From Microbacterium sp. LWH3-1.2 (GTDB lineage Bacteria > Actinomycetota > Actinomycetes > Actinomycetales > Microbacteriaceae), in the NCBI RefSeq assembly GCF_040675855.1, contig NZ_JBEGIK010000001.1, forward strand, positions 3,870,358 to 3,934,357: DNA of 64,000 nucleotides, read 5' to 3'. The stretch's first letter is position 1; every line of letters starts with the position of its first letter. This document shows positions 6,342-41,690 of the stretch, one piece after another. The position numbers were made by a program, and so were the translations under genes. The notes under the pieces are model-generated. The model searched no databases, was not told where the DNA came from, and was given only the letters and a program-made list of their open reading frames with translations.

Positions 6342-6347
6342 ACCACG

Positions 6348-6372
6348 AAGCGCCCCGCGATGCGGGACGCTT
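6348..6372 (-). terminator. Hairpin terminator downstream of tRNA-Tyr
   Basis: On the minus strand AAGCGTCCCGC and GCGGGGCGCTT form an 11-bp stem (one U-G pair) around the loop ATC, 9 nt after the tRNA. The tail is only weakly T-rich. Confidence 0.55.
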
Positions 6373-6380
6373 TCGGATGG

Positions 6381-6462
6381 TGGCGAGTGAGGGATTCGAA
6401 CCCCCGAAGTCTAAGACGGCTGATTTACAGTCAGATCCCTTTGGCCGCTTGGGTAACTCGCC
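6381..6462 (-). tRNA. tRNA-Tyr (GTA)
   Basis: A class II tRNA on the minus strand. The acceptor GGCGAGT pairs with ACTCGCC, the anticodon stem CTGA/TCAG encloses CTGTAAA with anticodon GTA, and there is a long variable arm and the T loop GTTCGAA. A CCA end is encoded just beyond (6378-6380), unlike the two tRNAs at the window start. Confidence 0.95.
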
Positions 6463-6551
6463 AGGTGCGCACCCGTCCGACTTTTCCAGACGACCGGAGG
6501 CGCGATCCACCATCTTACGCGTAGATCCTCGAGGTCAGAAATCGAGAGCGC

Positions 6552-9077: not shown

Positions 9078-9078
9078 G

Positions 9079-10698
9079 TCAGTTCAGCTCCTCGAGGGCC
9101 TTGGTCTTACGGAAACTGATCACCGCGATGACGGCGACCACGATGAAGATCAGGATCGTGAACGCCGAGGCGAGACCGTAGTCGCGGTTCTGCCCGGTGA
9201 AGGCGACCTTGTACACCATCGAGATGAGCAGGTCGGTGTGTCCCGCCGGTATCGCCGTGTCCTCGAATCGCGGACCGCCTCCGGTGAGCATGTAGATCAG
9301 GTTGAAGTTGTTGAAGTTGAAGGCGAACGACGCGATCAAGAGCGGCGTCACCGTGACGAGCAGGAGCGGCAGCTTGATGCGGCGGAAGATCTGCCACGGG
9401 CTCGCACCGTCCATCACGCCGGCTTCATTGACCTCTTCGGGGATGCCCTGCAGCGCTCCCATGCACACGAGGAACATGTACGGGAAGCCGAGCCAGAGGT
9501 TGACCAGCAGGACCGAGAACTTCGCGATCCACGGGTCGGTCAGCCAGCCGATCTCGGCTCCGCCCAGAAGGACCTGGTTGATGAACCCGAAGCTCTTGTT
9601 CATCATGCCCGCCCAGATGAGGGCCGACAGGAACGCCGGGAACGCATAGGGCAGGATCAGCATGATCCGGTACCCGTTCTTGAACCGCATCCGCGTGTTC
9701 TGGAAGAGCATCGCCAGCAGCAGACCGAGGAAGAAGGTCGTGGCCACCGAGACGATCGCGAAGACGAAGGTCCATGCCGTCACCGCCAGCAGCGGGCCGC
9801 GGATCGTCGTGTCGGTCAGGGCGCGCACGAAGTTGTCGAAGCCGACGAAGACCTGCCATCCGGGCAGCAGCTGTTCGCCGGACTCGGACGTGAAGGCGCC
9901 CTCGCCATCGTCTGTATAGACCGTCCCGGTCGTGGTGTCGGTCATCGTGTCGGCGGATGCGTCGTATACGAGGGTGGAGGTGTAGAGGTACCCCTTCTGG
10001 CCGTCCTGGGTGCGGATCGCCCCGTCATTGGGGTCGTCGGTGTACGGCACCGCGAGCTCTTCCACCTCGTTGCTGCGCGCGAGCACGTCCGCGAAGGTGA
10101 GCGTGGTCCAGCCGTCGACGGCGACGGCCTTGCCGCCCTCCATGGTGGCGTCGACCGGTTCGAGCGGCTTCAGGTTCGTGCCGAGCGACGCTTCGCCGTC
10201 GGTGGGGTCGGTCACCAGGAGGCCGAGTTCGCCGACGCGCTCGACGACGGTCACGTCGAACGTCGGCGAGTCCTCGACACGGACGAGGGATGACCGCATG
10301 AGGGACGCGATCGCCTGGTCCTTGGAGCCGTTGTGGCCGGTGCCGTAGTTGGTGAGGCCGATGTAGGCGGTGTAGCTCAGGGTGAAGATCTGGAACACGA
10401 CCAGCAGGATGATGCCCGGGGTCAGATACTTCGCCGGGATCTGCTTGCGGGAGAAGTAGATCCAGTTGACGAGGATCGTCACGGCCGTCACCAGCGTGAG
10501 GACGAGCCACTCGTTGTGCAGGAAGAGGACGAAGACGGCATAGAGCGCGACGGCGTCCACGATCGCCAGCATCACGATCTTGAGGACCAGCCAGCGGAGA
10601 CGGCCTCCGGCGGCGTCGGCCATGCGGGCGGCGCTGCGCTGCCTCGGCGTCTGCGGCGGGGCCTTCTCGTCAGTCGCGGTCGAGAGAGTATCGGTCAT
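9079..10698 (-). CDS. malF: Maltose-type ABC transporter permease MalF
   Basis: A 539-residue permease. The length and a large hydrophilic insert between the early and late membrane segments (roughly residues 115-275, Thr/Asp-rich) match the MalF P2 extracytoplasmic domain that contacts the binding protein. The EAA loop reads EEVNEAGVMDGASPWQIF. The ATG at 10698 follows GAGGA. The gene is separated from malE by an 82-nt spacer holding a perfect stem-loop, and is followed by malG with a 1-nt gap. Confidence 0.9.
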   Translation of the reverse strand: MTDTLSTATDEKAPPQTPRQRSAARMADAAGGRLRWLVLKIVMLAIVDAVALYAVFVLFLHNEWLVLTLVTAVTILVNWIYFSRKQIPAKYLTPGIILLVVFQIFTLSYTAYIGLTNYGTGHNGSKDQAIASLMRSSLVRVEDSPTFDVTVVERVGELGLLVTDPTDGEASLGTNLKPLEPVDATMEGGKAVAVDGWTTLTFADVLARSNEVEELAVPYTDDPNDGAIRTQDGQKGYLYTSTLVYDASADTMTDTTTGTVYTDDGEGAFTSESGEQLLPGWQVFVGFDNFVRALTDTTIRGPLLAVTAWTFVFAIVSVATTFFLGLLLAMLFQNTRMRFKNGYRIMLILPYAFPAFLSALIWAGMMNKSFGFINQVLLGGAEIGWLTDPWIAKFSVLLVNLWLGFPYMFLVCMGALQGIPEEVNEAGVMDGASPWQIFRRIKLPLLLVTVTPLLIASFAFNFNNFNLIYMLTGGGPRFEDTAIPAGHTDLLISMVYKVAFTGQNRDYGLASAFTILIFIVVAVIAVISFRKTKALEELN

Positions 10699-12273: not shown

Positions 12274-12762
12274 ATGGCAGATTCTTCGTTCGACATCGTC
12301 AGCAAGGTCGACCACCAGGAGGCGGAGAACGCCCTCAACCAGGCCCGCAAAGAGATCGAGCAGCGCTACGACTTCAAGGGCACCGGGGCCTCCATCGAGT
12401 GGAGCGGCGAGTCCGTGCTCATCAAGGCGAGCACCGAGGACCGCGCGAACGCCGTCCTCGACGTCTTCCAGTCCAAGCTCATCAAGCGGGGCATCTCCCT
12501 GAAGAGCCTCGACTCGGGCGAACCCTTCGCCAGCGGCAAGGAGTACCGCATCGTCTCGACCATCAAGGACGGCATCTCGTCGGAGAACGCGAAGAAGATC
12601 TCGAAGATCATCCGCGACGAGGGCCCCAAGTCGGTGAAGTCGCAGATCCAGGGCGACGAGCTGCGCGTGCAGTCGAAGTCCCGCGACGACCTGCAGGAGG
12701 TGCAGCGCCTGCTCAAGGCCGCCGACCTCGACGTCGACCTCCAGTTCGTCAACTACCGCTGA
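12274..12762 (+). CDS. yajQ: YajQ family nucleotide-binding protein
   Basis: A 162-residue UPF0234/YajQ protein. The family has two ferredoxin-like domains; members bind RNA/nucleotides, and c-di-GMP in Xanthomonas. Recognised from the start [13 protein letters not shown], the [10 protein letters not shown] motif, the [14 protein letters not shown] block and the C-terminal DLQFVNYR. The length is standard. The ATG at 12274 follows a TAGACT -10 box by 7 nt; upstream in-frame starts lie before that box and are rejected. The 3' end overlaps the convergent integrase gene by 10 bp, so the accessory island abuts an intact yajQ. Confidence 0.93.
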
Positions 12763-13886
12763 CGCGAGCCGCTGACCTGGGGTTTTTTGGTTTCAGTCCG
12801 CACGGAGTCCGCAGAATTGCGGATCTCCGTCATGAACGACGCGGTTGCGGACCGTGTTTTGTCCTCCGCGGACGGCCAGAGGTGGCTATAGACGTTCAGC
12901 GTGATGGACGGCGTGGAGTGTCCGAGCGCGCGCTGCACGGTGACGACATCGCAGCCCTGCGCGATCAGGTTCGACGCGAACGTGTGGCGAAGCGTGTGCA
13001 GGGTGATCTCGTCAGAGAGGCCAATGGCTTGCCGGATGCGGCGCCACTCCTCCGCAGCGTTGTTGCGGTGCCAGAGCCGGCCGAGCGGGGTGACGAAGAG
13101 CTGCTCGTCGTGATCGGTGACGTTCTGGCGTTGGACGTGAGCGGCCAGTGACGCCATCAGCTCGTCGGGGACGTAGACCGTGCGCTCGGATTCGTACTTG
13201 GGCGGCACGATCTGGGCGGTGGTGTTCGTCGCGCCCTGCACCTGGCGGGCGACGCTGATCGAGCGCCCGAGAAAGTTCACATCCCGCAGCTGCAGCCCGG
13301 CAGCCTCGCCGAGCCGCAAGCCGGCGAAGACGCAGACCTCGACGAAGCCGCGGAAGTCAGCGGCCGCCTCGAGCGCGGCGTTGACCTCCTCCGCGGACAT
13401 GATCCGCATGGCGGCCTCGGCCTTCCGACCCCGAGGGGCTTTGACGCCCACGGCCGGGCTCGACGCGATGACCTTGTCGGCGACGGCAGCGCGGAACGAC
13501 ATCTGCACGTAGTTGAGGCGCGTCCTGATGGTGGAAGCTGCCAGCCCGCGTTTCGACTCCGCGGCCACCCACGCCTGGACATGCGACGACTTGATGCCCG
13601 CGATCGGGCCGTCGCGCCACGGGACGCTCTGCACCGCGACGGCCGCCGCCTCGTGGGTGCCCACCGCCCAGGACTGTCGCTCCATCCACCGGGTCGCCCA
13701 TTCGTCCCAGGTGATTCGTCCCGCTTTGGGGTCGACATACTGCCCGGTGACGACGGCGGCCGCGACTTCGTCGAGCCACCGTTGCGCATCGCGCTTGAGA
13801 GTGAAGTGACGGGCGTGCTCCCGTCCGGCGTCATCGCGGTAGCGGGCGCGCCAGACGCCGTCAGTTCTCTGCTTGATCGATGCCAT
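12753..13886 (-). CDS. Tyrosine recombinase / phage-type integrase
   Basis: A 377-residue site-specific recombinase with an N-terminal arm-binding/AP2-like part (about 1-55), SAM-like core-binding domain (about 60-150) and catalytic domain. The catalytic set is visible: Arg191 in GLRLGE, His297 and Arg300 in HTLRH, His323 in LGHST and Tyr333 in NVYSH. The ATG at 13886 has GGAGGAA five bases upstream. The start lies within the 3' end of the XRE gene (26-bp overlap), giving a coupled regulator-integrase unit. It is probably active by sequence. No att repeat was found, and no tRNA sits beside it. Confidence 0.92.
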
Positions 13887-14457
13887 CGTCTTCCTCCGCC
13901 CGGTCGCCGCGGTCGCGTTTGGCCTCCTCGATCACCTCGCGGACGCGCGCGAGGAAGGCGTCGGTGTGGACGCTGGAGGCGGCATGGGTTCTGTTCAACC
14001 ATCCACCCGCTTCGCTGATGCCGCGTTGGTTCGCCTCGGCGCGGGCGAGCCCGTCCAGCGCGGCGTCGATGGCACTTCGGGTCACGATGGTGAGCGAATC
14101 TTTGGGCCACTCGGACTCGGGTCGGTCGTCGATCGCGCGGGCGAGCCTCAGTTGTGCATCGAATGCCACTCCGGCGAGTTCGGCGATCTCGTCGAGCAGG
14201 TTGGCGAAGTCGACCACTTCGGCGTGGAGGTCGAGCTCTTGAGGTGTTGCGAGCAGCAGATCCGGATTGATCCGCAGCACAACGCCGAGTCCTTCCGCTT
14301 CGGTGAGGCGCAACGGTCGCTCACCCTTCTCGACCGACCACACAGTGGCTTGGGACCACTTGAAACCTCGCGCGCGCATAGCCTCGGCGAGATCCTTCTG
14401 GCTCATGCCGTTTCTGATGCGGGTGAGGTTCGTGCCGATCTGCTCGTCTGTCGCCAT
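13861..14457 (-). CDS. XRE-family helix-turn-helix regulator
   Basis: A 198-residue protein. The first ~65 residues form an XRE/Cro-C1 HTH (GTNLTRIRNGMSQKDLAEAM, then WSQATVWSVEKGERPL). The rest is helical and acidic at the end, without a recognised domain. It is likely the control gene of the integrase island: it is divergent from the small HTH gene and directly precedes the integrase, overlapping it by 26 bp. A promoter with TACAAT lies 25 nt upstream of the ATG. Repressor or activator role is unknown. Confidence 0.8.
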   Translation of the reverse strand: MATDEQIGTNLTRIRNGMSQKDLAEAMRARGFKWSQATVWSVEKGERPLRLTEAEGLGVVLRINPDLLLATPQELDLHAEVVDFANLLDEIAELAGVAFDAQLRLARAIDDRPESEWPKDSLTIVTRSAIDAALDGLARAEANQRGISEAGGWLNRTHAASSVHTDAFLARVREVIEEAKRDRGDRAEEDDGIDQAEN

Positions 14458-14510: not shown

Positions 14511-14552
14511 TAAGCTATCCAGTTGGCTTCAACTAGCAAGGCGGGTGATGAG

Positions 14553-14735
14553 ATGGATCGCATTCTGTTCCTGGACGAGGTGGCCGAGCGCCTGCGGCGG
14601 ACTCCAGCGCAGCTGAGGTGGATGCTGCACACGGGCTCGGCACCGAAGTCGGCAATGATCGCCGGCAGGCGGTGCTGGCGGGAGTCTGACGTGGAGAAGT
14701 TCATCGCGGACGCGTTCGCTGACTCGCAGGGCTGA
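14553..14735 (+). CDS. Small MerR/AlpA-like helix-turn-helix protein (possible excisionase)
   Basis: A 60-residue basic protein with the HTH_17 pattern: FLDEVAERLRRTPAQLRWML as the helix pair, then GRRCWRESDVEKF as the wing and C-terminal helix. This layout is shared by recombination directionality factors and AlpA-type regulators. The ATG at 14553 is preceded by GGCGGG at about 9 nt; a TTG 30 nt upstream is possible but weaker. Placement opposite the XRE-integrase pair suggests an excision factor; function is inferred. Confidence 0.65.
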   Translation: MDRILFLDEVAERLRRTPAQLRWMLHTGSAPKSAMIAGRRCWRESDVEKFIADAFADSQG

Positions 14736-14991
14736 GGACGGTACGACGTCCGCACCTCCACAGCGTTGCTGATAGGTCGTGGGGTGGGCATCGGCTCGAT
14801 AGGCGGCAAGCCACGGCCGGAGCGTGGGAGATGTCAATGTGGAGCACGCGCAGCGGAGCGAGCATGAACGACATTGACCTCGCCAAGCGCAGGCTGAGGA
14901 TGGGCCGTCGAGGCGATGGCCTGTCGTGATCGCGTGCGAGTTCCGCTGACGACGCGGCCCTGACCGCCGCTGGGCGGTAAGGAGGTCCGTG
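14736..14991. other. Gene-poor segment of the integrase island
   Basis: No supported gene is visible. A 21-codon ATG frame at 14863 lacks a Shine-Dalgarno and is probably chance. The stretch leads into the IS110-like fragment, whose AAGGAGG ribosome site is at 14979-14985. Confidence 0.4.
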
Positions 14992-15135
14992 ATGTTTGCT
15001 TCAAGCGCCGCTGGCGCCTTCGACCCTCGTCGTGGCCGTTGATCCGGGGAAGGTGATGAATCGCGTCTGGGTCAGTGACGGGGCGGGCCCGGTGACCGAG
15101 CCGGTCTCGATGCCTGTCTCGCGCCGGGCCGCGCA
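14992..15135 (+). mobile_element. 5' fragment of an IS110-family transposase gene (frameshifted, truncated)
   Basis: AAGGAGG precedes an ATG at 14992 whose frame ends after 16 codons. One base over, the frame reads [18 protein letters not shown] and then a segment with [12 protein letters not shown]. The VAVDPGK motif carrying the first catalytic Asp of the DEDD domain, and the following TEPVS block, match the N-terminus of actinobacterial IS110-type transposases. The fragment stops after about 45 codons at a junction with selO-derived DNA near 15131. No second half is present, so the element is dead. Confidence 0.6.
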
Positions 15136-15314
15136 GCATCGGCCCGACGACGCCAAAGCCGTCGACGCGTGACATCGAGGTGGGGCCGATCCCCTTCAGA
15201 TGCAGATCGCGCAGGCGCCCCGACCCGTCGCGGCGATCGCCGAGAAGCGCCGCGCGACCGTCGCCGAGGATCGGCTTGTACACCCCCCCCACTGAGGGAA
15301 GGCCTCCGCCCAGA
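15131..15314 (-). pseudogene. Truncated selO fragment
   Basis: The minus strand encodes [19 protein letters not shown], then [19 protein letters not shown] and VVGPMLR. This is clearly homologous to residues about 110-165 of the intact SelO encoded at 39608-41119. An eight-G run at 15284-15291 replaces the six expected and shifts frame. Just upstream, 15297-15313 is identical over 17 bases to the part of intact selO that encodes WAEAF, far downstream in that gene, so pieces are deleted and reordered. Its other end joins the IS110-like fragment. Confidence 0.75.
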
Positions 15315-30472: not shown

Positions 30473-31081
30473 CTAGAAGACGTGCGCTTCGAACGAAGCG
30501 AAGAGTTGCTCGCGGCGATGCTGCAGCTCGCGATAGACCGTGGCACGCGAGACGCTGAAAAGTTCGGCGATTTCGGTCTGGGTGTATTCGCCGCGGTCGT
30601 GCACTTCAAACAAGAGGTTCCGCTGACTCTTCGACAGTTTCGGCTGCTTCCCCTTCAGCCTGCCCTTGGCGCGGGCGACGGCCATCCCCTCCCGTGTCCG
30701 CATGCTAATCAGGTCGCGCTCGAACTCCGCGACCATGGCGAGCACGTTGAACAACAGCCGCCCGACGGGATCAGTCGGGTCATACCGGCTCCCGCCGAGG
30801 CTGAGCGCGACTCCCTTCGTCGTCAATTCATCCGCGATCTCTCGAGCATCCCGTAGTGACCGAGCAAGCCGGTCAAGCTTCGTCACCACGAGGGTGTCGC
30901 CGGTTCGCACGGCGGCAAGTGCCTCACGCAGCCCTGGTCGGGCGCGATTCGCACCGGTCATCCCGTGGTCGACGAAGATGTGCTCGTCGTGCACGCCCAG
31001 ACGCAGCAGTCCGTCGCGTTGTGCGGTGAGGTCCTGATCTGTGGTCGAGACCCTGGCGTATCCAATCTGTATTCCATCCAT
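30473..31081 (-). CDS. Serine recombinase (resolvase/invertase family)
   Basis: A 202-residue small serine recombinase, normal for Tn3-type resolvases and invertases. The catalytic Ser12 is in YARVSTTDQD; conserved blocks are FVDHGMTGANRARPGL, TLVVTKLDRLARSL and the E-helix area FERDLISMRTREGM. The C-terminal HTH_7 is YTQTEIAELFSVSRATVYRE. The ATG at 31081 was chosen because family members begin two to six residues before IGYARVS; the upstream frame is Gly/Arg-rich. No transposase accompanies it, so it may serve element resolution or plasmid multimer control in the accessory block. Confidence 0.9.
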   Translation of the reverse strand: MDGIQIGYARVSTTDQDLTAQRDGLLRLGVHDEHIFVDHGMTGANRARPGLREALAAVRTGDTLVVTKLDRLARSLRDAREIADELTTKGVALSLGGSRYDPTDPVGRLLFNVLAMVAEFERDLISMRTREGMAVARAKGRLKGKQPKLSKSQRNLLFEVHDRGEYTQTEIAELFSVSRATVYRELQHRREQLFASFEAHVF

Positions 31082-31296
31082 CCACCCAGCGTCACCCCCG
31101 GCACCCGCCATGCCATTCGGATCCCTCTGCGAGCACCCGCGCGATCGGGTCCCCGCGTCGCGCATCCTGGCCGAGCGATCCGAGGAGGCAGGCGTTCGCC
31201 AGTCGTCGGGGTGATCTCCGCCCGTGGGGCTGCGCGCGATCAGGGCGCCTATCGGGCATGTCGATTCATCGCGGACTTATCGGAGGAAACGCCGTA
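31082..31296. other. Spacer between resolvase and TIR gene
   Basis: No gene seen. It contains one GGATCCCTCT repeat copy (31118-31128) and would hold the resolvase promoter. Confidence 0.35.
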
Positions 31297-31334
31297 CGCG
31301 AAGGGCGCATCACCGAGGTGATGCGCCCTTCGCG
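31297..31334. terminator. Perfect 18-bp inverted repeat downstream of TIR gene
   Basis: CGCGAAGGGCGCATCACC (31297-31314) and its exact complement (31317-31334) surround a 2-nt centre. It lies 39 nt beyond the TIR stop and could end both that transcript and read-through from the left. No T tract follows on either side. Confidence 0.55.
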
Positions 31335-31373
31335 TGCTGGACCGCTAGGCGGGAGCGGCGGTGACAGTGACCA

Positions 31374-32105
31374 CTAGTCGATCAATACCGTGTCAGCGAT
31401 CTTCGTCGCGACCACTTCCAACGACGGGTAGTCGGCGGTGGTCAACCCTGAGTGCGAGGCGAGCATCGGGCTAACGTCCAGCAGATCCTTGAACGTCACG
31501 CCGTGCGCGATCGGAATAACACGACCGGTCGAGAGCAACACCGACAACTCCCTATCCGCGATCCCCTCAGCGTTCAGGCTGCGAAGGAGAGCCGGTGTCA
31601 CAAGGACGATGCCAGCGCGGGAGTTCTTCAGACCCTTATCGATCTGTCGCATGAGCGGCGTACCGAGCGGTACGTCCTTCTCGCTGAACCACACCTTGAC
31701 GTCAAGACCGGTCAGAAGGTTGTAGAACTCGAGGGCGTCACCCTGGCGGTCGTCCCAGGCATGGCAGAGGAACAGGTCACGGCGGTCGATGTCAGTCTTT
31801 GCGAGTCGCACGACCTCCTCGCGAACCGGATTCAACGTCCGGTACTCAGCGGTGGAATACGTGACTGAGGACCGACGCGACCGGCTGGACGAACTACGCC
31901 CACCGCCTCCGCCGGACGACTTGCTGGCATAGCTCGGGTGACGCTTCGCGGGCGGAATCGTCGCGACAGTCGGTGCCGTGAAAGTGCGGGTGGGTCGCGG
32001 ATACTCGTAGTCGTACCGGTAGCGAGATGAACGTCCGCCGTGAACGGGGCAGTCGTCGCCGCCACCACGAATATGGCCTCGGATCGGTGCAGTGCATCGG
32101 GACAT
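31374..32105 (-). CDS. TIR-domain protein with N-terminal Cys/His cluster (putative anti-phage NADase)
   Basis: A 243-residue protein. Residues 1-24 carry a C-x6-H-x7-C-x2-H pattern (Cys4, His11, Cys19, His22) suited to zinc, followed by a Ser/Arg/Gly linker. A TIR domain spans about 108-225: DLFLCHAWDD (strand A/box 1), VKVWFSEKDVPLG with candidate catalytic Glu142, and SRAGIVLVTPALL. Bacterial TIR domains of this sort cleave NAD or make signalling nucleotides on infection. The ATG at 32105 has GAGGAGGAG eight bases upstream. No partner effector of Thoeris type (SIR2/SLOG) is adjacent, so it may act alone or with the Abi genes nearby. Confidence 0.85.
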   Translation of the reverse strand: MSRCTAPIRGHIRGGGDDCPVHGGRSSRYRYDYEYPRPTRTFTAPTVATIPPAKRHPSYASKSSGGGGGRSSSSRSRRSSVTYSTAEYRTLNPVREEVVRLAKTDIDRRDLFLCHAWDDRQGDALEFYNLLTGLDVKVWFSEKDVPLGTPLMRQIDKGLKNSRAGIVLVTPALLRSLNAEGIADRELSVLLSTGRVIPIAHGVTFKDLLDVSPMLASHSGLTTADYPSLEVVATKIADTVLID

Positions 32106-32366
32106 GGTGTGGCTCCTCCTCAGGAACCTTGCGCCGTAGACCAAGAGCCTCGCGGCGAGCCCTCGGTGGGCTCACCTCCGCGCGGCGGTACTAAGGTTGG
32201 AAGCGCCATCCCCTCCTACAGTTTTGGTGCAGTCAACCCCGACCCGGCTCCCCCGGTGATCGGGGTTGTCGTGCTTCGGCTGGGCCGTCGTTGGCTTGCT
32301 TCAAATACTACATATGGGTACCGACATTCGATAGAACCACAAGGGGTAGTAGTTACATCGGTGTGA
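32106..32366. other. Spacer with CAACCCCGA hairpin
   Basis: No gene seen. CAACCCCGA (32234-32242) pairs with TCGGGGTTG (32260-32268) around a CCGG-containing centre; this may be a terminator or a structured leader of the TIR transcript. The part from 32290 is AT-richer than its surroundings. Confidence 0.4.
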
Positions 32367-32533
32367 TTATCCACCGTTCTCCCCACGTGCAACACAGGTT
32401 GTCCACAGGAGATTGCACAGGAACTGCCGACACTACATCGTCGTGAATCCGCCGAAGTAGCGGACCTGCCTTCGACAGCCCACAGCCGCGGGTGTTAGTG
32501 GGCATGTCTGACACTCGTTTCCCCTGTGGATAG
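32367..32533. other. Cluster of DnaA-box-like 9-mers
   Basis: TTATCCACC (32367-32375), TTGTCCACA (32399-32407, the usual actinobacterial DnaA box) and TGTGGATAG (32525-32533, i.e. CTATCCACA on the minus strand). They lie in an AT-richer gene-free stretch. A fourth box is at 36445. Possible remnant of a plasmid origin; no rep gene is seen nearby. Confidence 0.4.
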
Positions 32534-32632
32534 CCGCGTCGGCGTGTCGCATGAGAGTACTTCCTGTGTTGGCTTGCCATGACCGGCACGTCGGCCAGTT
32601 CGAGAATCCTGCAGCCGAGCGGAGTGACACCC

Positions 32633-32638
32633 TAGGCT
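32633..32638 (+). promoter_or_regulatory. -10 box TAGGCT for the Abi/ApeA unit
   Basis: TAGGCT ends 6 nt before the GTG at 32645 with no Shine-Dalgarno, consistent with a leaderless mRNA. Confidence 0.45.
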
Positions 32639-32644
32639 CACGTC

Positions 32645-33595
32645 GTGCCAATCAGTGAGGAATACGTGCGTGAGGAACGCATCAAGCGACTGCGAAAGTT
32701 CGTCAGGACGGGCGAGAGTCACTTGCTCACTCTCCACGACGCCGTGAAACGCTACTTGCGGATGGTTCCGCAAGGGGCGGAGCCCTTCAAGGTCAAGGGC
32801 ATCGACGGGGATGTCGTGTTGCACCCACCCATCGTTTGGGATCGCGATCACCTGATCGCGCTCGGAATGTTCACCGACAACAAGCTGCACAACACATATG
32901 CGACGATCAGCAAGTGGTTGTTCAGTGATGCCGCGAATCTCTCGTTGCGTGACCTCAACGACGACCTCCTTGCGGAGTTCGAAGCGCTGAGCAATCCGAT
33001 CGACCTAACCGTTGGTCAGGGAAAAAAGACGGCTGAGGAGCAACTAGATCAGTTGGCTCTCGACATCGAGGCGCGCGTCGCCATCTTCGCGGCGCAGTTG
33101 AAGAGCGATGGCGAGCACGAAGACATCACCCCCGCCCTTCGGGATGCTCCTGGGGGGTGGCCGCACCTGCGAGGAATCATCGCCGATCCGGTGCTCGATG
33201 GCTATCTCGCGCAAATGAGAAGGCGGCGGACGAAGAGCGAGATATCGGCTGCGATCGGGGCAGCCAAGGAGGTCACCGAGGCGACCATCAAGCATGTCGC
33301 GAGCGCAACGGGCCTCACGCCGGCCAACCCAAACTCAACGAGCCTTGGCCAATGGTGGAAGCTCATTGAGCCGACGCTCGAAAGCGCCAAAATCGAGAAG
33401 GCGCTCGGCTCGAAGGACCTTGGACTTATCAAACTTCTGGCCAGTCAGGTCAATACGGTCTCGTCACTCGGCGAGTTGCGTAACAAGGTCGGCACCGGTC
33501 ACGGGAAGTCCGTGCACCCCGCGGGGCTCACGACGGCACACGCGCTGTTCGCGATCGACACTGCACACACCGTGACGCGCTACCTGACCAACTGA
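32645..33595 (+). CDS. Abortive infection family protein (Abi_C domain)
   Basis: A 316-residue protein. The C-terminal third (about 199-316) matches the Abi_C domain of AbiJ-type proteins: an SEISAAIGAAKEVTEATIKH helix, the LGQWWKLI segment, then LRNKVGTGHGKSVHP followed by a closing helix. LRNKxGxGHG is the hallmark of this domain. The N-terminal ~190 residues are helical and unassigned. Known family members provoke growth arrest on phage infection. The GTG start is leaderless. The ApeA/HEPN-like gene follows 10 nt after its stop, so both likely act together. Confidence 0.8.
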   Translation: MPISEEYVREERIKRLRKFVRTGESHLLTLHDAVKRYLRMVPQGAEPFKVKGIDGDVVLHPPIVWDRDHLIALGMFTDNKLHNTYATISKWLFSDAANLSLRDLNDDLLAEFEALSNPIDLTVGQGKKTAEEQLDQLALDIEARVAIFAAQLKSDGEHEDITPALRDAPGGWPHLRGIIADPVLDGYLAQMRRRRTKSEISAAIGAAKEVTEATIKHVASATGLTPANPNSTSLGQWWKLIEPTLESAKIEKALGSKDLGLIKLLASQVNTVSSLGELRNKVGTGHGKSVHPAGLTTAHALFAIDTAHTVTRYLTN

Positions 33596-33605
33596 GTGGA
33601 GCGTC

Positions 33606-35075
33606 GTGGATAAGTACCTACTGAGCGATTCACACGAATGGTCAGGGCATTGGTGGTTGCCTTCGGCGCCTGACGACCGAGTCGCGGGCGTGCTCTCGTT
33701 CGAGCCGGATGACGGGCTAACGCTTCGGCTGATCGGCGGATGGAGTATCGACTACGAGGAGCCAACCGAGTCGGTTATCGTGACGGCGAACCGGATGCCG
33801 CAGGCACCGCTGATCCACGGAGTGTCGCGCGGGGAGCTGATCACTCTCGCGGACGTCTTCTTCACGAAAATGGAACGGTTCCGCGTCGGACATCGAGGTC
33901 CCGCGGATTCGACCATCGCGCATGCGGAGACGGCGCTCGTAGGATGCCACCTGGACGACGCCGACTCGACCGTGTTTGAGGGCGCCATCGCGACCATCGA
34001 GAACATGTCGTCATGGTCTCGCCTGAGCGGCATGCGGTCCGAGGTGGGACGCGACGACGACGGACGCCGCACCAGCGGGATCACGAATGTGCAAGTCGGC
34101 CCGCTCGTGGCTGAAATTGGTGACGTTACGGCGACGCTCTTTCACATGCTGTGGCTGCCGCAGAGCGAGTTCACGCGGTGGGGAACTCGTGAGAGCTTGC
34201 GCGAGACGGCATCGCTCCAGATCACCTCTGGGCAGCCGCGGAGCCTCGCGGGCTGGACTGAAGAGTTGAGAAGCGCCGGGGACCTGATTTCCCTGTGTGG
34301 GCTGACCGCGTGTGGCTTGCTGTCGATCCGACTCCTCCTGCCTGCGACGCCTGAGCGCTACCGCGAGGGTGATCCCCGAGCAAGCGTCAGGAACGAGGTG
34401 TACGTCGTCCAGAAACGGATCACGCAGCCCAACCCGACGGCGTCGGCGCTCGAGGCTCGCCACTTCGTAGTCACCCTCGACGACTTTGACTTCGAGACGC
34501 TCATGCAGCGGTGGTTCGAGGTGCGTGAGACGTTCTCAGCTGCGCGAGGCATGATCCTCGGACTCAAGTACGTCCCGGGCGGCTACGTCGAGACTCAGTT
34601 GATTGCGGCCGTCGCCGCTGCGGAGTCGATGCATCGCGCACTCGCGCCAGCCTCACCGATCGATGATGACAAGTACCGTCGCCTTCGCAAGCTGCTCGTC
34701 GATGCGACTCCGCCAGAACTCGTGACATGGGTCCGGGACCGACTCCCGAGAAACGAGCCGTCCTTAAAGGACCGGCTCCTTGACCTCGCCCGCCGCCCCG
34801 GCGAGTTCATGAGCACACTTGTCCCAGATGCCGAAAAGTGGGCAAGGGCGGCACGCACATCGCGAGACCAGCTCGCTCACACAGGCGAGACCAAAGCGCA
34901 GAGTGTCGAGCAAATGGCTGCGGTCTCAGAGGTCACCGCGGCAGTGGTAGCGCTGAACTTGCTCTTCGAGCTGGGCGCGCCGATCGACGCGCTCGCTGAA
35001 GCGCTGAGCGCACAGCCTGACCTTCGCATCGCGTGCGACTTTGGCCAGGAGAACTTCTCCTCCGAGACGGGCTGA
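33606..35075 (+). CDS. ApeA-like HEPN anti-phage protein
   Basis: A 489-residue protein. The N-terminus (EWSGHWWLPSAPDDRVAGVL followed by beta-rich sequence) resembles the ApeA N-terminal domain. The C-terminal helical part ends in a HEPN-type RNase motif R-x4-H at Arg420-His425 (RDQLAH), preceded by ESMHRAL and KWARAARTSRD helices as in ApeA/HEPN proteins. ApeA is a defence RNase that stops phage growth. The GTG start has GTGGAG about six bases upstream. Codon bias is weaker than in the core genes, consistent with transfer. Family placement is from motif memory, not a search. Confidence 0.72.
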   Translation: MDKYLLSDSHEWSGHWWLPSAPDDRVAGVLSFEPDDGLTLRLIGGWSIDYEEPTESVIVTANRMPQAPLIHGVSRGELITLADVFFTKMERFRVGHRGPADSTIAHAETALVGCHLDDADSTVFEGAIATIENMSSWSRLSGMRSEVGRDDDGRRTSGITNVQVGPLVAEIGDVTATLFHMLWLPQSEFTRWGTRESLRETASLQITSGQPRSLAGWTEELRSAGDLISLCGLTACGLLSIRLLLPATPERYREGDPRASVRNEVYVVQKRITQPNPTASALEARHFVVTLDDFDFETLMQRWFEVRETFSAARGMILGLKYVPGGYVETQLIAAVAAAESMHRALAPASPIDDDKYRRLRKLLVDATPPELVTWVRDRLPRNEPSLKDRLLDLARRPGEFMSTLVPDAEKWARAARTSRDQLAHTGETKAQSVEQMAAVSEVTAAVVALNLLFELGAPIDALAEALSAQPDLRIACDFGQENFSSETG

Positions 35076-35380
35076 CTGACGAAGCGCCCCTTACGCCCGA
35101 CAACATCGCGCAGCTTTTGGACGCGGATGTCGAACTCGTCGAACGCGCACTGCATAGTCACCGCGGTCAACCAGGCAGGCCGCCGGTGAGCTCGCTGCGC
35201 AGGCGATCCGCGAACGACTGAAGGGCGCCGGAGAGAAGCCTCACCCGCAGCGCGGGAGCCGGTGGCGTCATAGCGCGCCCCGGGCCGCATTTCTCTCTAC
35301 TCTCAGTATCCCGGCGGTCGGGCCTTATGGTCATCGAGCGCCCGGATGTCGGTCCTGGGCCGGGCATCCGACGCGGCGGA
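35076..35380. other. Spacer with two marginal short ORFs
   Basis: A plus frame (GTG 35033 to 35221) reads LTDEAPLTPDNIAQLLDADV and then VELVERALHSH, coding-like and HTH-like, overlapping the end of the ApeA-like gene. A minus frame (35271-35167, 34 codons) reads LRVRLLSGALQSFADRLRSE. Both could be remnants; neither has a convincing ribosome site. Confidence 0.3.
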
Positions 35381-35932
35381 TTACCGCTCTTCGATGTCGA
35401 CCAACCACCCGGCGAATGAGCGAGTCGTACCTTCGCCGAGCGGACGGCTCATGCTGGCGCCGTCCGGTTGCAGCGGGGTATCCGGTTCTTCCGGCGGCAG
35501 CCGCACGCCGCGGGTCGGCTCCAGTTTGGCTGTGCCGGGCACAGGCACGATCTCAACCACGTACCGCGACGGTCTCGAGCCCGCAAACACGCCGCCGCCG
35601 AGGTCCCGGCCGACCAGTGGCCACTCCTCGCCGTCAGGCGGCATGACTGCGTCAGCCGGCGCGCCGTGGCCTGGACGACGCAGTGAGCGACGTTCCTCGA
35701 CTTCGTGCGCGACCATACTCACGGCGGTCACGCGGCCGCGCACTCGATCGGCGACTTCCTGTTCGTGATGCGACTCGACCGCGTCCACCGTTGCGATCAG
35801 TGCCGGACCGAGGAGGTCACCGAGCGACGGATCGGGGGTGCGTGTGGCGATGCCAAAGTCGACTTCGTCGCCGACAACGAATGCGTCACCACAGCACGCC
35901 CACTCCCACTCCGTCAGCCACACGTGCGTCAT
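35381..35932 (-). CDS. DUF6578-like protein
   Basis: A 183-residue protein beginning MTHVWLTEWEWACCGDAFVV, the pattern of the actinobacterial DUF6578 family (Trp-rich start, a CC pair, then GDEVDFGI). The C-terminal part is Pro-rich and ends in GWLVDIEER. Function unknown. The start at 35932 follows a TACGGT -10 box by 7 nt (leaderless); the frame open further upstream lies before that box and is rejected. Confidence 0.6.
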   Translation of the reverse strand: MTHVWLTEWEWACCGDAFVVGDEVDFGIATRTPDPSLGDLLGPALIATVDAVESHHEQEVADRVRGRVTAVSMVAHEVEERRSLRRPGHGAPADAVMPPDGEEWPLVGRDLGGGVFAGSRPSRYVVEIVPVPGTAKLEPTRGVRLPPEEPDTPLQPDGASMSRPLGEGTTRSFAGWLVDIEER

Positions 35933-35939
35933 GCAGCCC

Positions 35940-35945
35940 ACCGTA
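35940..35945 (-). promoter_or_regulatory. -10 box TACGGT for the DUF6578-like gene
   Basis: On the minus strand TACGGT lies 7 nt before the ATG, with no Shine-Dalgarno. Confidence 0.45.
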
Positions 35946-35993
35946 GCGAGCGGCGGCGGACCTATCTGCACCGCGGGCCCGGAGGTGGGTGTG

Positions 35994-36404
35994 CTACCGC
36001 GCGGCGGAGAGGCTTTCGCGGACTCGCGCGATTGCGGCCGCCCACGCTTCGGATCCGGCGTCGCTCCACAGTTCAGCGAGCTCCCCTTGCGGAGAGGCCG
36101 CGATCTCGAGCGCACTCAGCGCGACCGGCACGATCCCTTGTGGCGGATTCGGAAGTCGCTCCACGAACGCGGTAACGCTTTCCGTGTAGACGTCTGATTG
36201 AGTGGGTGCGCCACTGGCGTGCGCGACGACCTCGGCCGCTGCGATGGCAACACTGGCAACATCCGCGTCGATGGATGCCGGCTCCTCTTCGAGGACACCG
36301 GTGAGGGCATCCAGAACCAGGTCCCAATTCTCGGCCTCGTCGAGTTCCCACGCCCAGTCGGCCACGGTGTCGTTGCCGAACGGCTCTGCACTCCATGCAC
36401 CCAT
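35994..36404 (-). CDS. DUF4259 domain-containing protein
   Basis: A 136-residue acidic protein starting MGAWSAEPFGNDTVADWAWE, the characteristic DUF4259 opening (MG-W---PF-ND-A-DW). It is all-helical in appearance, with many Ala/Glu/Asp. Function unknown; members are scattered in accessory regions, sometimes near toxin or defence genes. A TACTGT -10 box 6 nt before the ATG indicates a leaderless transcript. It lies upstream of the DUF6578-like gene, in the same orientation, but each has its own promoter. Confidence 0.75.
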   Translation of the reverse strand: MGAWSAEPFGNDTVADWAWELDEAENWDLVLDALTGVLEEEPASIDADVASVAIAAAEVVAHASGAPTQSDVYTESVTAFVERLPNPPQGIVPVALSALEIAASPQGELAELWSDAGSEAWAAAIARVRESLSAAR

Positions 36405-36621: not shown

Positions 36622-39366
36622 CTAGCGCGTGATTCCGTTCCCGAACGAGTTCAGTGGGCCGTATCCGACGGGTCGAGTAGCCGCTTCTCGTGAGGCTCGG
36701 CGGAGTTCGAGATGAGCGGCCGTAATCGACTCGGCGATAGTGATCTCGGCGGCACCCCGGAGCATCGTCGTGGCTACATCGTCGATCGCGGCTCGGTCGC
36801 TGTGGGCAACGCTGACAGCGACGTTGTGATGGCGACCGCGGGTGAGGCCGACGTAGAGTCCGGCGGCGTCGACGTCGGGCCCGACGAAGGCGGCGTCGGT
36901 GGTGTCGCCTTGGATGCCGTGCACGGTTGAGGCGTAGGCGAGTTGGACGTAGTCGAGGGCGTAATCATGGGTGATACGGCGGCGCTCGCCGGCGTCGCTG
37001 GGTGAGACTAGGTCGATCGCGTCGTCGCGGATGCCGTCGACGATCCAGGTGGCGCGGTTATCGATGCCGGTGCGAGGGTCGTTGCGGCGGGTCTGCACGG
37101 TATCTCCGACGAGGAGTCGTTGCTCATCGCGCCCCCACGCGAGGACCCTGGGGTCGAGTTCGCCGATGTCGACGCGGTGCTGCTGGATGAGTGTGCTGAC
37201 CGCGTCGGCTTCCGTGTTGCTGCCGCACACCAGTGCAACCCGCTGCCCATGAGCCCGGGCGTCGATGTACCCGTCGACCATGACGGTGCGCGCGGCTTCG
37301 GTGGACTCCACGCGGCGGACGTGGCCGCCGGCGGCGAGAGCGGTCGCGATGCGGAGTGCGTGCTGGTGGTCCCGAGGGTGGCGTAGCTGCAGTGTGAGGG
37401 CGGCGTAGGCAGGGTCGCGGAATCGGTGCACGGTATCCAGCTCGACGGTGGCGGTGGTGTGGCGCGTGGCGATCGCCATCGCCCCCGCGTGCCCGACGGG
37501 CAGGGCTTGGTGTGGGTCACCGACCAGGGCCAGGTCGACGCCGGTATCGAGCGCGAGTTCGGCGAGCGCGTCAGCAGTCTGCAGGTCGACCATGCCTGCC
37601 TCGTCCACCACGATCCGGTCCCTCGGATACAGCGGATACTGCTGCGGTCCGGGATAAACCGCCCCGGTGGTGGGGTCGATGTCGCGGACGGCAAGCCGTG
37701 TCCATACCTGTGCGCCAGCGACATCTCGGATCCATCGGTAGCCGTGGTCGTACAGCAGGGCGTGCAGGCTGGATGCGTCCGCGCCCACTTCCCGCGCAGC
37801 GACGGATGCGGCCTTGCGGGTGGGGGCCACGACGAGCATGCGGCGCCGCTGCGCGTACAGGGCGGCGTGCGCAGTGCGCAGCATCGTGGTCTTCCCGGCG
37901 CCGGCGGGGCCGGTGACGGTGACGAGCCGATCGGTGCCGGCGATAGCGCACGCCGCGACAAGCTGTGACCGGTCCAACCGGTCGATCCCCTCGACGGATG
38001 CAGCTGCCCGGCGCAACTCGTCGGGCAGCCGGGACCGACCAGGCGTCGCGAGAGCATCGAACCGACCCGCGAGCCGCACCTTCAACCGGCAGGTCTCCGT
38101 CGCCATGAGCTGTTTGATGTGCCCCGGCAAACTCTCTTCTGCGATCAGCCTCACCACGCGCTGGTAAGCGCAACGAACGACCTCCCCGACGGTCCCGTCG
38201 AGGTCGCTCCGGCCTGCCACGATCCCGGTTCCGGCGAGCGCGCGCAGCGCGCCAGCATGAAGGTCGAAGCTGCTGAACCGGCCGCTCGATGCCCGGGACC
38301 GCTCGTCGGCATCCACCACCGCTTGCGCGGCCAGCAGCTCCAGATCCAGCTCCGCAATCGTGATCGGGGCGACCGCGTGTGGTGCGCGGCGGTTCAGCAG
38401 GCCCGGGTCGAGCGTTGCCAGCTCGTCCCGGACAGCGCGCTCCCATGAGCCCTCATCCAATAGTGCGGGCTTGTTCGGCCGGGACACCGCCCACGCCCGC
38501 CGGTCGATCTGCGCCAGCACCTCCACGCTCGGGCGCGACCCACCGTGCGCCGACTGCCATGCGGCGATCAGCCGGCTACGGTTCGCCTCGATCTGCGCCG
38601 ACCGCCGCGACAGCGGGGCCACCGCCGATGCGAGCTCCGCGATCTCCCCGTCAGGACGGATCGTGTAGCCGTGGCGGGCAAGCGCCGCGATCCACTGAGG
38701 GTCGGTCCGCGCAGCGAGTTCGCCTTCGGCGTTGACGACGGTATGGAACTTCATCGCCACCCGTGAGTCAACGTTGGACCACCTGCCGTCCTCACCCTTG
38801 ACCTTCACGTTCAGCCACAAGTGCCGGTGGATATGCGGGTCCAGCGCGCGGGAGCGGCGGTGTTGCAGTTCCACCACCTCGAGGCGGGCGATCGACTCGC
38901 GGATGAGGCCGCCGTGTCCCCGGCGGGCGTTCAACTCGCGCTGCCACAGCATGATCGTGCGGTCGCGGATGCGGTCCTGCAACGCCTCGAACTCGGCCGC
39001 CAACTCCGAGTGCAGCACGGCGGCGATGCTGTACGACTTAGGGTGATTCAGCGTGCCATCCAGCAGCAGATCTGCCTCCGCACGCAGCTGTGGCCTCCCG
39101 CGCTCCTCACCCGTCACGGGGTCGTGGCCGGTCAGCCACGTTCGTAATGCGCTCGGCGGCAACTCGTCCGCACGGAGCTCGCCACCCTCGGCGATGAAAC
39201 GCGTGACGGCCGAGTCATGCGCGGCTTCGCTGTACGCCTCGAGCGCGTCGACGCCGTACGTCTCCTGCAGGTGCGCGTCGCAGACACCATCGAACGCGTA
39301 GGCAATCGCCTGTCGAACACCGCGAGAGTCACCGCCCCGCTTCCACCGCTCGAGCCCACCCCTCAT
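36622..39366 (-). CDS. TraA/MobF-like conjugative relaxase-helicase
   Basis: A 914-residue protein. The N-terminal TrwC-type relaxase part contains the HUH metal triad His178-His180-His182 in DPHIHRHLW. The helicase part has Walker A GPAGAGKTT near 484, Walker B RIVVDEAGMVD, then VGDPHQALPVG and the late YVGLTRGRHHNVAV (RecD/AAA_30 type). It should nick oriT and unwind DNA for transfer. The usual MobF N-terminus with a YY pair near residue 20 is not seen; Tyr23, Tyr37 and Tyr45 are the only early candidates. An in-frame TAG lies 12 nt upstream of the ATG, so no longer start exists. No other transfer gene is in the window. Confidence 0.85.
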   Translation of the reverse strand: MRGGLERWKRGGDSRGVRQAIAYAFDGVCDAHLQETYGVDALEAYSEAAHDSAVTRFIAEGGELRADELPPSALRTWLTGHDPVTGEERGRPQLRAEADLLLDGTLNHPKSYSIAAVLHSELAAEFEALQDRIRDRTIMLWQRELNARRGHGGLIRESIARLEVVELQHRRSRALDPHIHRHLWLNVKVKGEDGRWSNVDSRVAMKFHTVVNAEGELAARTDPQWIAALARHGYTIRPDGEIAELASAVAPLSRRSAQIEANRSRLIAAWQSAHGGSRPSVEVLAQIDRRAWAVSRPNKPALLDEGSWERAVRDELATLDPGLLNRRAPHAVAPITIAELDLELLAAQAVVDADERSRASSGRFSSFDLHAGALRALAGTGIVAGRSDLDGTVGEVVRCAYQRVVRLIAEESLPGHIKQLMATETCRLKVRLAGRFDALATPGRSRLPDELRRAAASVEGIDRLDRSQLVAACAIAGTDRLVTVTGPAGAGKTTMLRTAHAALYAQRRRMLVVAPTRKAASVAAREVGADASSLHALLYDHGYRWIRDVAGAQVWTRLAVRDIDPTTGAVYPGPQQYPLYPRDRIVVDEAGMVDLQTADALAELALDTGVDLALVGDPHQALPVGHAGAMAIATRHTTATVELDTVHRFRDPAYAALTLQLRHPRDHQHALRIATALAAGGHVRRVESTEAARTVMVDGYIDARAHGQRVALVCGSNTEADAVSTLIQQHRVDIGELDPRVLAWGRDEQRLLVGDTVQTRRNDPRTGIDNRATWIVDGIRDDAIDLVSPSDAGERRRITHDYALDYVQLAYASTVHGIQGDTTDAAFVGPDVDAAGLYVGLTRGRHHNVAVSVAHSDRAAIDDVATTMLRGAAEITIAESITAAHLELRRASREAATRPVGYGPLNSFGNGITR

Positions 39367-39409: not shown

Positions 39410-39443
39410 CACCGTTGGTGCCTGCGTGCATTCCCTACTTCTA

Positions 39444-39531
39444 TTCCATACTTCTCTCGCCTCGCTTCCGAACTTCTCGTGCCTCGATTCCGAACTTCTC
39501 TTGCCTCGGCGCGACTATCTCGTGGCCCAGC
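39444..39531 (+). repeat. 22-bp direct repeats (three good copies plus one degenerate)
   Basis: Units start at 39444, 39466, 39488 and (degenerate) 39510. The common pattern is TTCCGAACTTCTC, two variable bases, then GCCTCG; copy 1 has ATA for GAA. A partial TTCCCTACTTCT lies just left (39431). They sit between the relaxase gene and selO. Tandem 22-bp repeats are typical of plasmid iterons or relaxosome sites. Confidence 0.7.
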
Positions 39532-39607: not shown

Positions 39608-41119
39608 TCAGGTGCCGCAGAACGTGCGGTGCGGTGGAGTGCCTGACGGGGCCGGCCGCGCGAACCGCAGGTATTCGCTACCCGGCCGCTCGGTGTAGGG
39701 GTTGCGTAGCAGCTTGACGAGCTGCTCGAAGGGAGCGAGGTCGCCCGCGTTCGCCGCCTGCAGTGCCCCTTCGACGATGTGGTTCCGGGCGATGTAGTGG
39801 GGATTCACCGCGCGCATCGTCGCGGCATCGGGCGCAAGCGCGCGCCACTGCACTAGCCAGGCATCGAGCTCTGGTAGCGGTCCGAGGAATCGATCTCGAA
39901 CAGCTCGTTCATCGCCCTCGGCCGCCGTCGCGAGATTCCGCCAGAATCCCGTGAAGTCCACCTTGTGCTCGGCGAGCAGAGTGAGCGCGTCGTGGGCGAG
40001 CGGGGCCGCGTCGGCCGCGCTAACCCCCGTATGCAGGCCCAGCTTCGTGCGGAAGGCCTCCGCCCAGCGTCGCTGGTACTGCGCATCAAAGCCGGCGACG
40101 ATCTCGGCAGCGACCGCCTCCCCCGCTGTCGTCTCATCAGCGAGCAGCGGCGACAGCGCTTCGCCGAGTCGCTCCAGATTCCACTGCATGATCGACGGCT
40201 GCCTGTCGTACGCGTAGCGCCCGAACCGGTCGATCGAGCTGAAGTACGCGCCCGGCTCATACGCGTCGAGGAAGGCGCAGGGCCCGTAGTCGACGGTCTC
40301 GGCGCCCACGAGCACGTTGTCGGTGCTGAGCACGCCGTGCACGAAGCCGATGCGCATCCAGTGCGCCGTGAGCGCGGCGACCGCACCGACGACCCCCTCC
40401 AGCAGTGCCCGATACGGATGCCGCGCCTCGGCCGCCTGCGGATAATGTCGCGTGATCACGTGGTCGGCGAGCCGGCGCAGCAGCGCCAGGTCTTCCTGGG
40501 CGCGCACGTACTCGAACGAGCCGAACCGCACGTGACCGGATGCCGTTCGCGCAAGAACAGCTCCGGGCAGGAGGGAGCCGTCGAGTTCTCGAGGTCTGCC
40601 CGTGGCGACCACCGCGAGCATGCGGGTCGTGGGAACTCCCAGGGCGTGCATGGCCTCGCCCATCAAGAATTCGCGCAGCATCGGGCCCACAACCGCGTAC
40701 CCATCAACGCGCGAGAGCGGCGTCGGCCCGATGCCCTTGAGGTGCACATCGCGAAGGCGACCGTGGCTGTCGCGACGCTCCCCGAGAAGCGCCGCGCGCC
40801 CGTCGCCTAGGACGGGCTTGAAGACGCCCCACTGGTGCCCGGCGTACAGCTGCGCAACGGGCGGCCGGCCCTCATGGAACGACTCGCCGGTAAGGAAGCG
40901 TACGCCTTCGGCGGAGCCGAGGTATGCAGGGTCGAGATCGACGTCGCGCGCGACCTCCTCTCCCAGTGCGAGAAGCCGGGGCTCGGGGGGTCGCACCGGG
41001 GTGACGGGGCGGGACAGCTCGGGGAACGACTCGGCCCAGGTCCGCTCCAGCCATGGCAGGCAGGCGGGCAGATCGAGCGTAGTGTTCGTCGCGGCGTGGG
41101 ACGCGGCATCCGTCATCAT
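39608..41119 (-). CDS. selO: Protein adenylyltransferase SelO
   Basis: A pseudokinase-fold AMP transferase that modifies proteins on Ser/Thr/Tyr and is linked to redox response. Motifs are QLYAGHQWGVFKPVLGDGRA (nucleotide loop), then KGIGPTPLSRVDG, the FVHGVLSTDNVLV active-site region, the ALAPD segment and the conserved C-terminal end TFCGT (selenocysteine/Cys site). The gene is full length, about 503 residues. The start is uncertain: ATG at 41119 or 41116 lack a Shine-Dalgarno, while a GTG at 41146 has GGGGGAG. A broken paralogous fragment lies at 15131-15314. Confidence 0.9.
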   Translation of the reverse strand: MMTDAASHAATNTTLDLPACLPWLERTWAESFPELSRPVTPVRPPEPRLLALGEEVARDVDLDPAYLGSAEGVRFLTGESFHEGRPPVAQLYAGHQWGVFKPVLGDGRAALLGERRDSHGRLRDVHLKGIGPTPLSRVDGYAVVGPMLREFLMGEAMHALGVPTTRMLAVVATGRPRELDGSLLPGAVLARTASGHVRFGSFEYVRAQEDLALLRRLADHVITRHYPQAAEARHPYRALLEGVVGAVAALTAHWMRIGFVHGVLSTDNVLVGAETVDYGPCAFLDAYEPGAYFSSIDRFGRYAYDRQPSIMQWNLERLGEALSPLLADETTAGEAVAAEIVAGFDAQYQRRWAEAFRTKLGLHTGVSAADAAPLAHDALTLLAEHKVDFTGFWRNLATAAEGDERAVRDRFLGPLPELDAWLVQWRALAPDAATMRAVNPHYIARNHIVEGALQAANAGDLAPFEQLVKLLRNPYTERPGSEYLRFARPAPSGTPPHRTFCGT

Positions 41120-41165
41120 GGGGTCGGCCCCCACCGCGCGCGCCACCCTGAACTCCCCCCGGCCG

Positions 41166-41690
41166 TCAATGTGCGACGGAGGCGTCCGCACCCAGCACGC
41201 GCTCCAGCGCGGGCCATTCCGTGTGTAGCCACCCCTCGACGACCTCTGCGCGGCGGTCGGTCTCGGACGCGGGAAACGCGATGCCTCGCGTCGGCGTGGA
41301 CGCTCCGAGTTCGATCAGCAGCGGACGCAGGCCGTGCTCGACGGCGAGCGCGTGCGTGGGCGCGCCGATGGTGAGCAGCGGAACCGCGGTCACGCCGTTC
41401 AGCTCGCCCGCCGTGAAGCGGTCCAGGAAGGCCTTGAGCAGCCCCGTGTAGGTCGCCTTGTACGTCGGGCTTGCGACGACCACGAGATCGGCCGCCGTCA
41501 CCCGGCGCCGCAGCTCGTCGATGGTGTCGTCGGGGAAGCGGAAGAGGAGCGATGCGACGTCGGCCAGGTCGATCGTGTCCGCCACCCGAGCTCCGGAGCG
41601 CGCGGCGATCCGCCCGGCGACCTCCTCCGCCACCAGGCGCGTGCGTGACGAGGGCTGAGGGTTCCCGACCAGGACGACGATGCTCGACAT
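41166..41690 (-). CDS. NAD(P)H-dependent FMN reductase (SsuE-like flavodoxin fold)
   Basis: A 174-residue protein of the FMN_red family. The phosphate loop GNPQPSSRTR is at residues 9-18, and VVVASPTYKATYTGLLKAFL near 71-90 is diagnostic of SsuE/MsuE-type reductases that supply FMNH2 to two-component monooxygenases. It lies divergent from a flavin reductase-LLM operon, consistent with feeding those monooxygenases. The start at 41690 is preceded by a G-run close to the ATG; an in-frame ATG 9 nt upstream is possible. Confidence 0.87.
   Translation of the reverse strand: MSSIVVLVGNPQPSSRTRLVAEEVAGRIAARSGARVADTIDLADVASLLFRFPDDTIDELRRRVTAADLVVVASPTYKATYTGLLKAFLDRFTAGELNGVTAVPLLTIGAPTHALAVEHGLRPLLIELGASTPTRGIAFPASETDRRAEVVEGWLHTEWPALERVLGADASVAH

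Follow-up and report, generated by a model that had tools for sequence, protein, structure and literature searches.

Candidate abortive-infection genes and a recurrent relaxase with an oriT-like site in Microbacterium sp. LWH3-1.2

A 64,000-nucleotide stretch of the Microbacterium sp. LWH3-1.2 genome (contig NZ_JBEGIK010000001.1, positions 3,870,358 to 3,934,357; hereafter the window) carries genes for a TIR protein, an Abi_C protein, an ApeA protein and two small DUF proteins, with a serine resolvase and a relaxase-helicase nearby. An earlier note on this DNA had taken the five genes as a compact anti-phage defence locus. Its domain calls and the mobility context have stood up to analysis, and the union of the five genes in a single defence locus has not: TIR, AbiC, ApeA and the DUF genes are not supported as one conserved defence locus. 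It is the relaxase, mere context in the note, that turns up repeatedly amid defence genes. The explanation we favour, with some confidence, is that two or three independent abortive-infection modules are the cargo of an integrative mobilizable element. The genes under discussion are the following.

31374..32105, minus strand: TIR protein, ThsB-like, with a Cys/His N-terminus; the open frame extends to 32144
32645..33595, plus strand: Abi_C protein (Pfam Abi_C), with a possible HEPN-type C-terminal half, R279-N-x5-H286
33606..35075, plus strand: ApeA protein, ApeA_NTD1 and HEPN (Pfam, PADLOC), R420-x4-H425
35381..35932, minus strand: DUF6578 protein (Pfam 58.3 bits, cut-off 27.8); predicted start, the open frame extends to 36115
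35994..36404, minus strand: DUF4259 protein (Pfam 78.9 bits, cut-off 22.8)
36622..39366, minus strand: TrwC/MobF-type relaxase-helicase (Pfam TrwC 101.8 bits, cut-off 25, and AAA_30)
39418..39431, minus strand: core ATGCACGCAGGCAC of a site resembling an origin of transfer (oriT), with a CACC-AAC-GGTG hairpin from the core's end

Every gene listed in the note is an open reading frame at the position given there. The TIR, Abi_C, ApeA/HEPN, DUF6578 and DUF4259 proteins each score above the curated Pfam cut-off, and the TIR, Abi_C and ApeA domains were all matched in profile searches, in which eight window proteins were scanned against Pfam and seven against PADLOC. The motifs SEKD, LRNKVGTGHG and RDQLAH were found in the translations, and Pfam confirmed both mobility genes, the serine resolvase and the TrwC-type relaxase-helicase.

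The comparison with other genomes covered 149 of the genus, this one included, and 299 of the family, and revealed no conserved co-occurrence of TIR, Abi_C and ApeA. Matches in the genus were found for ApeA in nine genomes, for Abi_C in seven and for TIR in 14, the only strong Abi_C match being that of this genome. No pair of the three shares a contig in any other genus genome. Pairs on separate contigs occur in genomes G300 (ApeA on C1, TIR on C3), G340 (Abi_C on C3, TIR on C35) and G401 (Abi_C on C12, TIR on C101), and at least one member of each pair is a weak or partial match. The family genomes, searched for ApeA and Abi_C but not for TIR, gave ApeA in 15 and Abi_C in four; besides this genome, both were found only in G083, on different contigs. 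At 17 loci of relatives (five AbiC, eight ApeA, four TIR), two of the three genes were never together. One ApeA locus (L056) has a resolvase 77–79% identical to that of the window about 3 kb away (12319-12986, two abutting matches), and another (L059) has a relaxase at 36% identity about 5 kb away.

These counts weigh against one multi-gene defence system, in which TIR would be the sensor, the two HEPN proteins the effectors, and the DUF proteins further members. The genes are physically close, abiC and apeA point in the same direction 10 bp apart, and at L059 a different TIR-like gene lies about 860 bp downstream of the ApeA relative. Such a system nevertheless seems very improbable, given that no two of TIR, AbiC and ApeA lie on one contig in any other genus genome searched, that ApeA and Abi_C share none elsewhere in the family, and that the relatives' loci hold them singly.

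The relaxase was matched in 80 of the 149 genus genomes. Its neighbours were surveyed at the first ten of 20 loci selected for long contigs, with one control stretch from the same genome for each, and they are enriched in defence genes relative to these controls. Among 79 neighbour proteins of at least 150 amino acids, Pfam found N6_Mtase and HsdM_N in five each, Methylase_S and HSDR_N in four each, and SWI2_SNF2, SMODS and GmrSD_N in three each. The best 25 of 119 rows for 90 control proteins include one T1RH-like_C and one SWI2_SNF2, and families beyond those 25 have at most two members each. At a threshold of 1e-10, 352 PADLOC models were matched near the relaxase vs. 96 in the controls. 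Type I methyltransferase models had up to six members near the relaxase; in the controls MkoA had two and all others one, including REase_I, Specificity_I and PD-T4-6. The second relaxase copy in this genome lies beside HsdS and HsdM of a type I restriction-modification system and a CBASS phospholipase and cyclase. DrmA and DrmB accompany the relaxase at L081, and HsdR, HsdM, a CBASS cyclase and E1-E2 at L089, with other cargo seen by eye at several loci (L078, L079, L080 and L084 among others).

The features of a MobF relaxase, i.e., the TrwC domain, HUH histidines, tyrosine and helicase, are all present, and the NCBIfam MobF model scored 87.9 bits, under its cut-off of 100. Residues H178, H180, H182, Y23 and Y45 are invariant in all 41 copies compared, which are that of the window and 40 further ones, including the second copy in this genome. 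Upstream of the relaxase, the 14-mer ATGCACGCAGGCAC is exact in 35 of these loci and has one change in the other six. The exact 14-mer has 79 copies in the genus genomes, with none for the reversed pattern used as control; in the family genomes there are 38 copies vs. two reversed, distributed over 25 genomes and 15 of 85 genera. Most of the genus copies (55 of 79) lie 50–220 bp before a relaxase match. The remaining 24 have no adjoining relaxase, and at least two of them (G426 C11 and G437 C8) stand at the end of a contig, which would have truncated any relaxase there. The exact core is present at 48 of 59 full-length relaxase places, defined by more than 2,500 aligned bases at no less than 56% identity; the other 11 are six one-change loci and five that were not read.

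A GTG follows CAC at hairpin distance in 50 of 59 unique sites vs. 10.7 in shuffles, and the fourth pair of the hairpin is C-G in 25 and T-A in six. Together, ATGCACGCAGGCAC, the hairpin and the intact relaxase motifs fit an origin of transfer, and the site is a putative oriT. To its left, 60 unique sites display a bias of A over T for 50–150 nucleotides (A 31% and T 11% in the first 50), which is gone by 150–200. The sharp end of homology at the motif led to consideration of a transposon-like reading of the Helitron or IS91 type. This was provisionally set aside because the bias continues 50–150 nucleotides left of the site, and because a different small gene follows some relaxase-less sites, as expected for oriT inside elements. 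Tandem repeats were rejected as a general feature of the site, since they occur to the left of only four of 60 unique sites, that of the window included, vs. none of 55 control places.

The proposed extent of the element rests on the following features.

12753..13886, minus strand: tyrosine integrase adjacent to yajQ, proposed to mark the distal end of the element (Phage_integrase 86.8 bits)
13861..14457, minus strand: helix-turn-helix (HTH) regulator beside the integrase (HTH_31 26.1 bits, just under the cut-off of 27), matched in G439
39444..39509: three 22-bp tandem repeats beside (left of) the oriT-like core
39578: right edge of the insert, where homology to G347 (91.5%) begins, 30 bp beyond the selO stop

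In genome G439 the integrase, HTH gene, relaxase and oriT-like site are neighbours. Their counterparts in the window lie at 12.75–14.7 kb and 36.8–39.4 kb with 22 kb in between, and homology between window and G439 ends within one base of the oriT-like site. The element of the window is best read as belonging to a widespread family. The 22-kb segment begins on the left with a selO fragment (14834-15292), 54 residues of which match the full gene (39608-41191) at 78%. No convincing repeat pair was found for attachment sites (attL/attR).

Several kinds of locus share the core. A coupling-protein gene of a type IV secretion system (T4SS) is present in eight of the 41 relaxase loci (one member of its cluster was scanned), and ATGCACGCAGGCAC is found in such loci too; at the other 33, the stretch read lacks this cluster altogether. 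After some relaxase-less sites comes a gene for a 111-residue protein (L121 at 1574-1906, L130, L133 and, by eye, L170), which at L121 had no Pfam match. By eye, the same small gene and an integrase are present in G347, where a relaxase-less site lies beside selO; a tRNA-Ser is there as well. At L097, the gene at 14526-15227 encodes a protein of cluster 1, a cluster present in 14 of the 41 relaxase loci; its only match was to an HTH model, below the cut-off.

An ordinary hot spot is a rather unlikely alternative. The defence genes and the relaxase would then have arrived independently at the same chromosomal spot, and the relaxase element would carry none of them. This would agree with the presence of defence genes on both sides of the oriT-like site, with the presence in G347 of another element at this selO edge, and with the failure to find attachment sites. 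It accords poorly with relaxase motifs that are intact in all 41 copies compared and with a defence association that recurs at other places of several genomes.

The mobilizable-element explanation, with its cargo of independent modules, leads to a mechanism in which enzyme activities, phage defence, nicking, transfer and the joint travel of the defence genes with the relaxase are all inferred. The first module would be a TIR enzyme that works by itself, with NAD+ as its expected substrate. The second would be an abiC-apeA operon encoding a pair of HEPN or HEPN-like proteins that each have an N-terminal part of their own and are expected to cut RNA once infection is sensed, with the result that the infected cell would stop before phage release. 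The vehicle would extend from the tyrosine integrase with its HTH gene to the relaxase with the oriT-like site. The nick made by the relaxase would fall at ATGCACGCAGGCAC or close to it, and the transfer channel would come from a related element equipped with a T4SS. A bolder version, which we consider doubtful, makes the core a mobility code common to Microbacteriaceae elements of the conjugative, relaxase-only and relaxase-less kinds. The MobF-type relaxase would nick and rejoin DNA there, assembling and reshuffling defence islands; the reshuffling was suggested by the end of the G439 homology so close to the site.

Among integrative mobilizable elements, those that have a relaxase have been termed iMOB and those that lack one iOriT (PMC11389934). 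The proposed element of the window resembles these in its integrase, relaxase and oriT-like site, and in that no T4SS was seen for it, although T4SS genes were not sought across the whole window. The Microbacteriaceae loci differ in that those with a T4SS coupling gene, those with a relaxase only and those without a relaxase share one oriT-like core, often amid defence genes.

The TIR protein matches Pfam TIR_2 (43.3 bits, cut-off 28) and PADLOC ThsB (PDLC00424, 2.5e-72). Translation probably begins with the ATG at 32105, shortly after an AGGAGG. A sequence search of solved structures brought up TIR enzymes as relatives, with AbTIR, which bears the name NAD(+) hydrolase, among the closest. In the alignment, the Glu in WFSEKD pairs with the Glu in WYDEF of AbTIR, which we take to be the catalytic residue; the TIR domain and aligned Glu expected of a TIR NADase are present. 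These are shared with Thoeris ThsB and the AbTIR-type NADases, from which the window protein differs in the lack of an adjacent ThsA, in its N-terminal Cys/His stretch and in its Ser/Gly-rich linker. The strong ThsB match also raises the possibility, in our estimation unlikely, of an orphan ThsB partnered with a ThsA encoded elsewhere, as in Thoeris. However, there was no ThsA among eight neighbour proteins scanned with Pfam and seven with PADLOC, and PF18185, the sole ThsA model used, was unmatched in this genome, though its control matched in no genome either. The Cys/His N-terminus is common to three of four genus relatives examined (L062, L063, L064), and a resolvase-like gene is within three open reading frames of TIR in two of them (L062, L064); neither AbiC nor ApeA was found at these four loci. 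At L104 (5436-6263, genome G437) another TIR gene immediately precedes a copy of the relaxase with its oriT-like site.

Of the whole set, abiC and apeA alone look like one transcription unit, since they are on the same strand with the abiC stop at 33595 and the apeA start at 33606. In the Abi_C protein, the Abi_C domain (42.1 bits, cut-off 24) covers residues 261–315, and the remainder had no Pfam domain match. The C-terminal domain with its R-N-x5-H motif is that of the AbiJ/Abi_C family; in contrast to a whole-protein AbiJ, the PADLOC AbiJ profile reaches only residues 263–315, at E 0.0055. Residues R279, N280 and H286 are invariant in 25 sequences. ApeA gave 109.6 bits for ApeA_NTD1 (cut-off 25.5), 56.6 for HEPN_Apea (24.4) and 7.7e-44 for PADLOC PDC-S58, and its R420 and H425 are invariant in 24 sequences. 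The closest named relative among the matches of the window proteins is an ApeA, at 79% identity. Like the known ApeA of HEPN abortive infection (PDC-S58), the window ApeA has ApeA_NTD1 and an Apea-like HEPN domain over nearly its full length; unlike it, its gene directly follows an Abi_C gene, a pair present nowhere else in the genomes searched.

Sequence searches of solved structures found no credible relative of AbiC, and for ApeA no match at all. The Abi_C model had weak fold matches to HEPN RNases, and the fold matches include the toxins LsoA and RnlA, each of which belongs to a known pair; many matches for residues 1–158, to unrelated helical proteins, were not used. Given this weak likeness to HEPN RNases, both products of a possible abiC-apeA operon may be HEPN proteins. 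A toxin-antitoxin pair, with one protein restraining the other, would likewise have a two-gene operon, and LsoA and RnlA point that way. We give it little credence: HEPN-type motifs are kept in both proteins, and ApeA is at none of the five AbiC-relative loci from the genome-contig scan (L020-L024, three close and two weak). TIR and relaxase were also found at none of these. L020 is on a Pseudarthrobacter plasmid record; tblastn gave no AbiC match among 72,556 PLSDB plasmid records, nor was there one in viral contigs. ApeA was matched in 10 plasmid records, each below 60% identity. At L021 a gene for 415 residues (8744-9991) ends just before the Abi_C relative; its RNTIGH stretch is a possible HEPN motif, and at thresholds of E 0.01 and 1e-5 it matched nothing in Pfam and PADLOC, respectively. 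At L061 the protein adjoining the ApeA relative (6251-7939) matches PADLOC PDC-S25 (5.7e-125) and, more weakly, ThsA.

Full-text literature searches found nothing joining MobF, defence islands and actinobacteria, or Microbacterium, defense islands and mobilizable. Titles and abstract beginnings on Microbacterium relaxase and integrative included none evidently on this relaxase family, which may still be described, and GCACGCAGGCAC occurred in full text only in papers unrelated by title. If the proposed reading is true, the 14-mer and one relaxase family are a simple handle for finding defence cargo in Microbacteriaceae genomes. The possible two-HEPN operon and the Cys/His-headed TIR protein would be testable small defence systems, and helper, mobilizable and relaxase-less elements would apparently share one transfer site.

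Two further features lie on the resolvase side of the cluster.

30473..31165, minus strand: serine resolvase (Pfam Resolvase 143.4 bits, cut-off 23.3)
31296..31335: perfect 19-bp inverted repeat between the TIR and resolvase genes, likely a terminator

The start of DUF6578 is probably at 35932, and it would therefore not overlap DUF4259. The G+C content is lower at 31–35 kb, 0.59–0.64 vs. about 0.70 in the surroundings.
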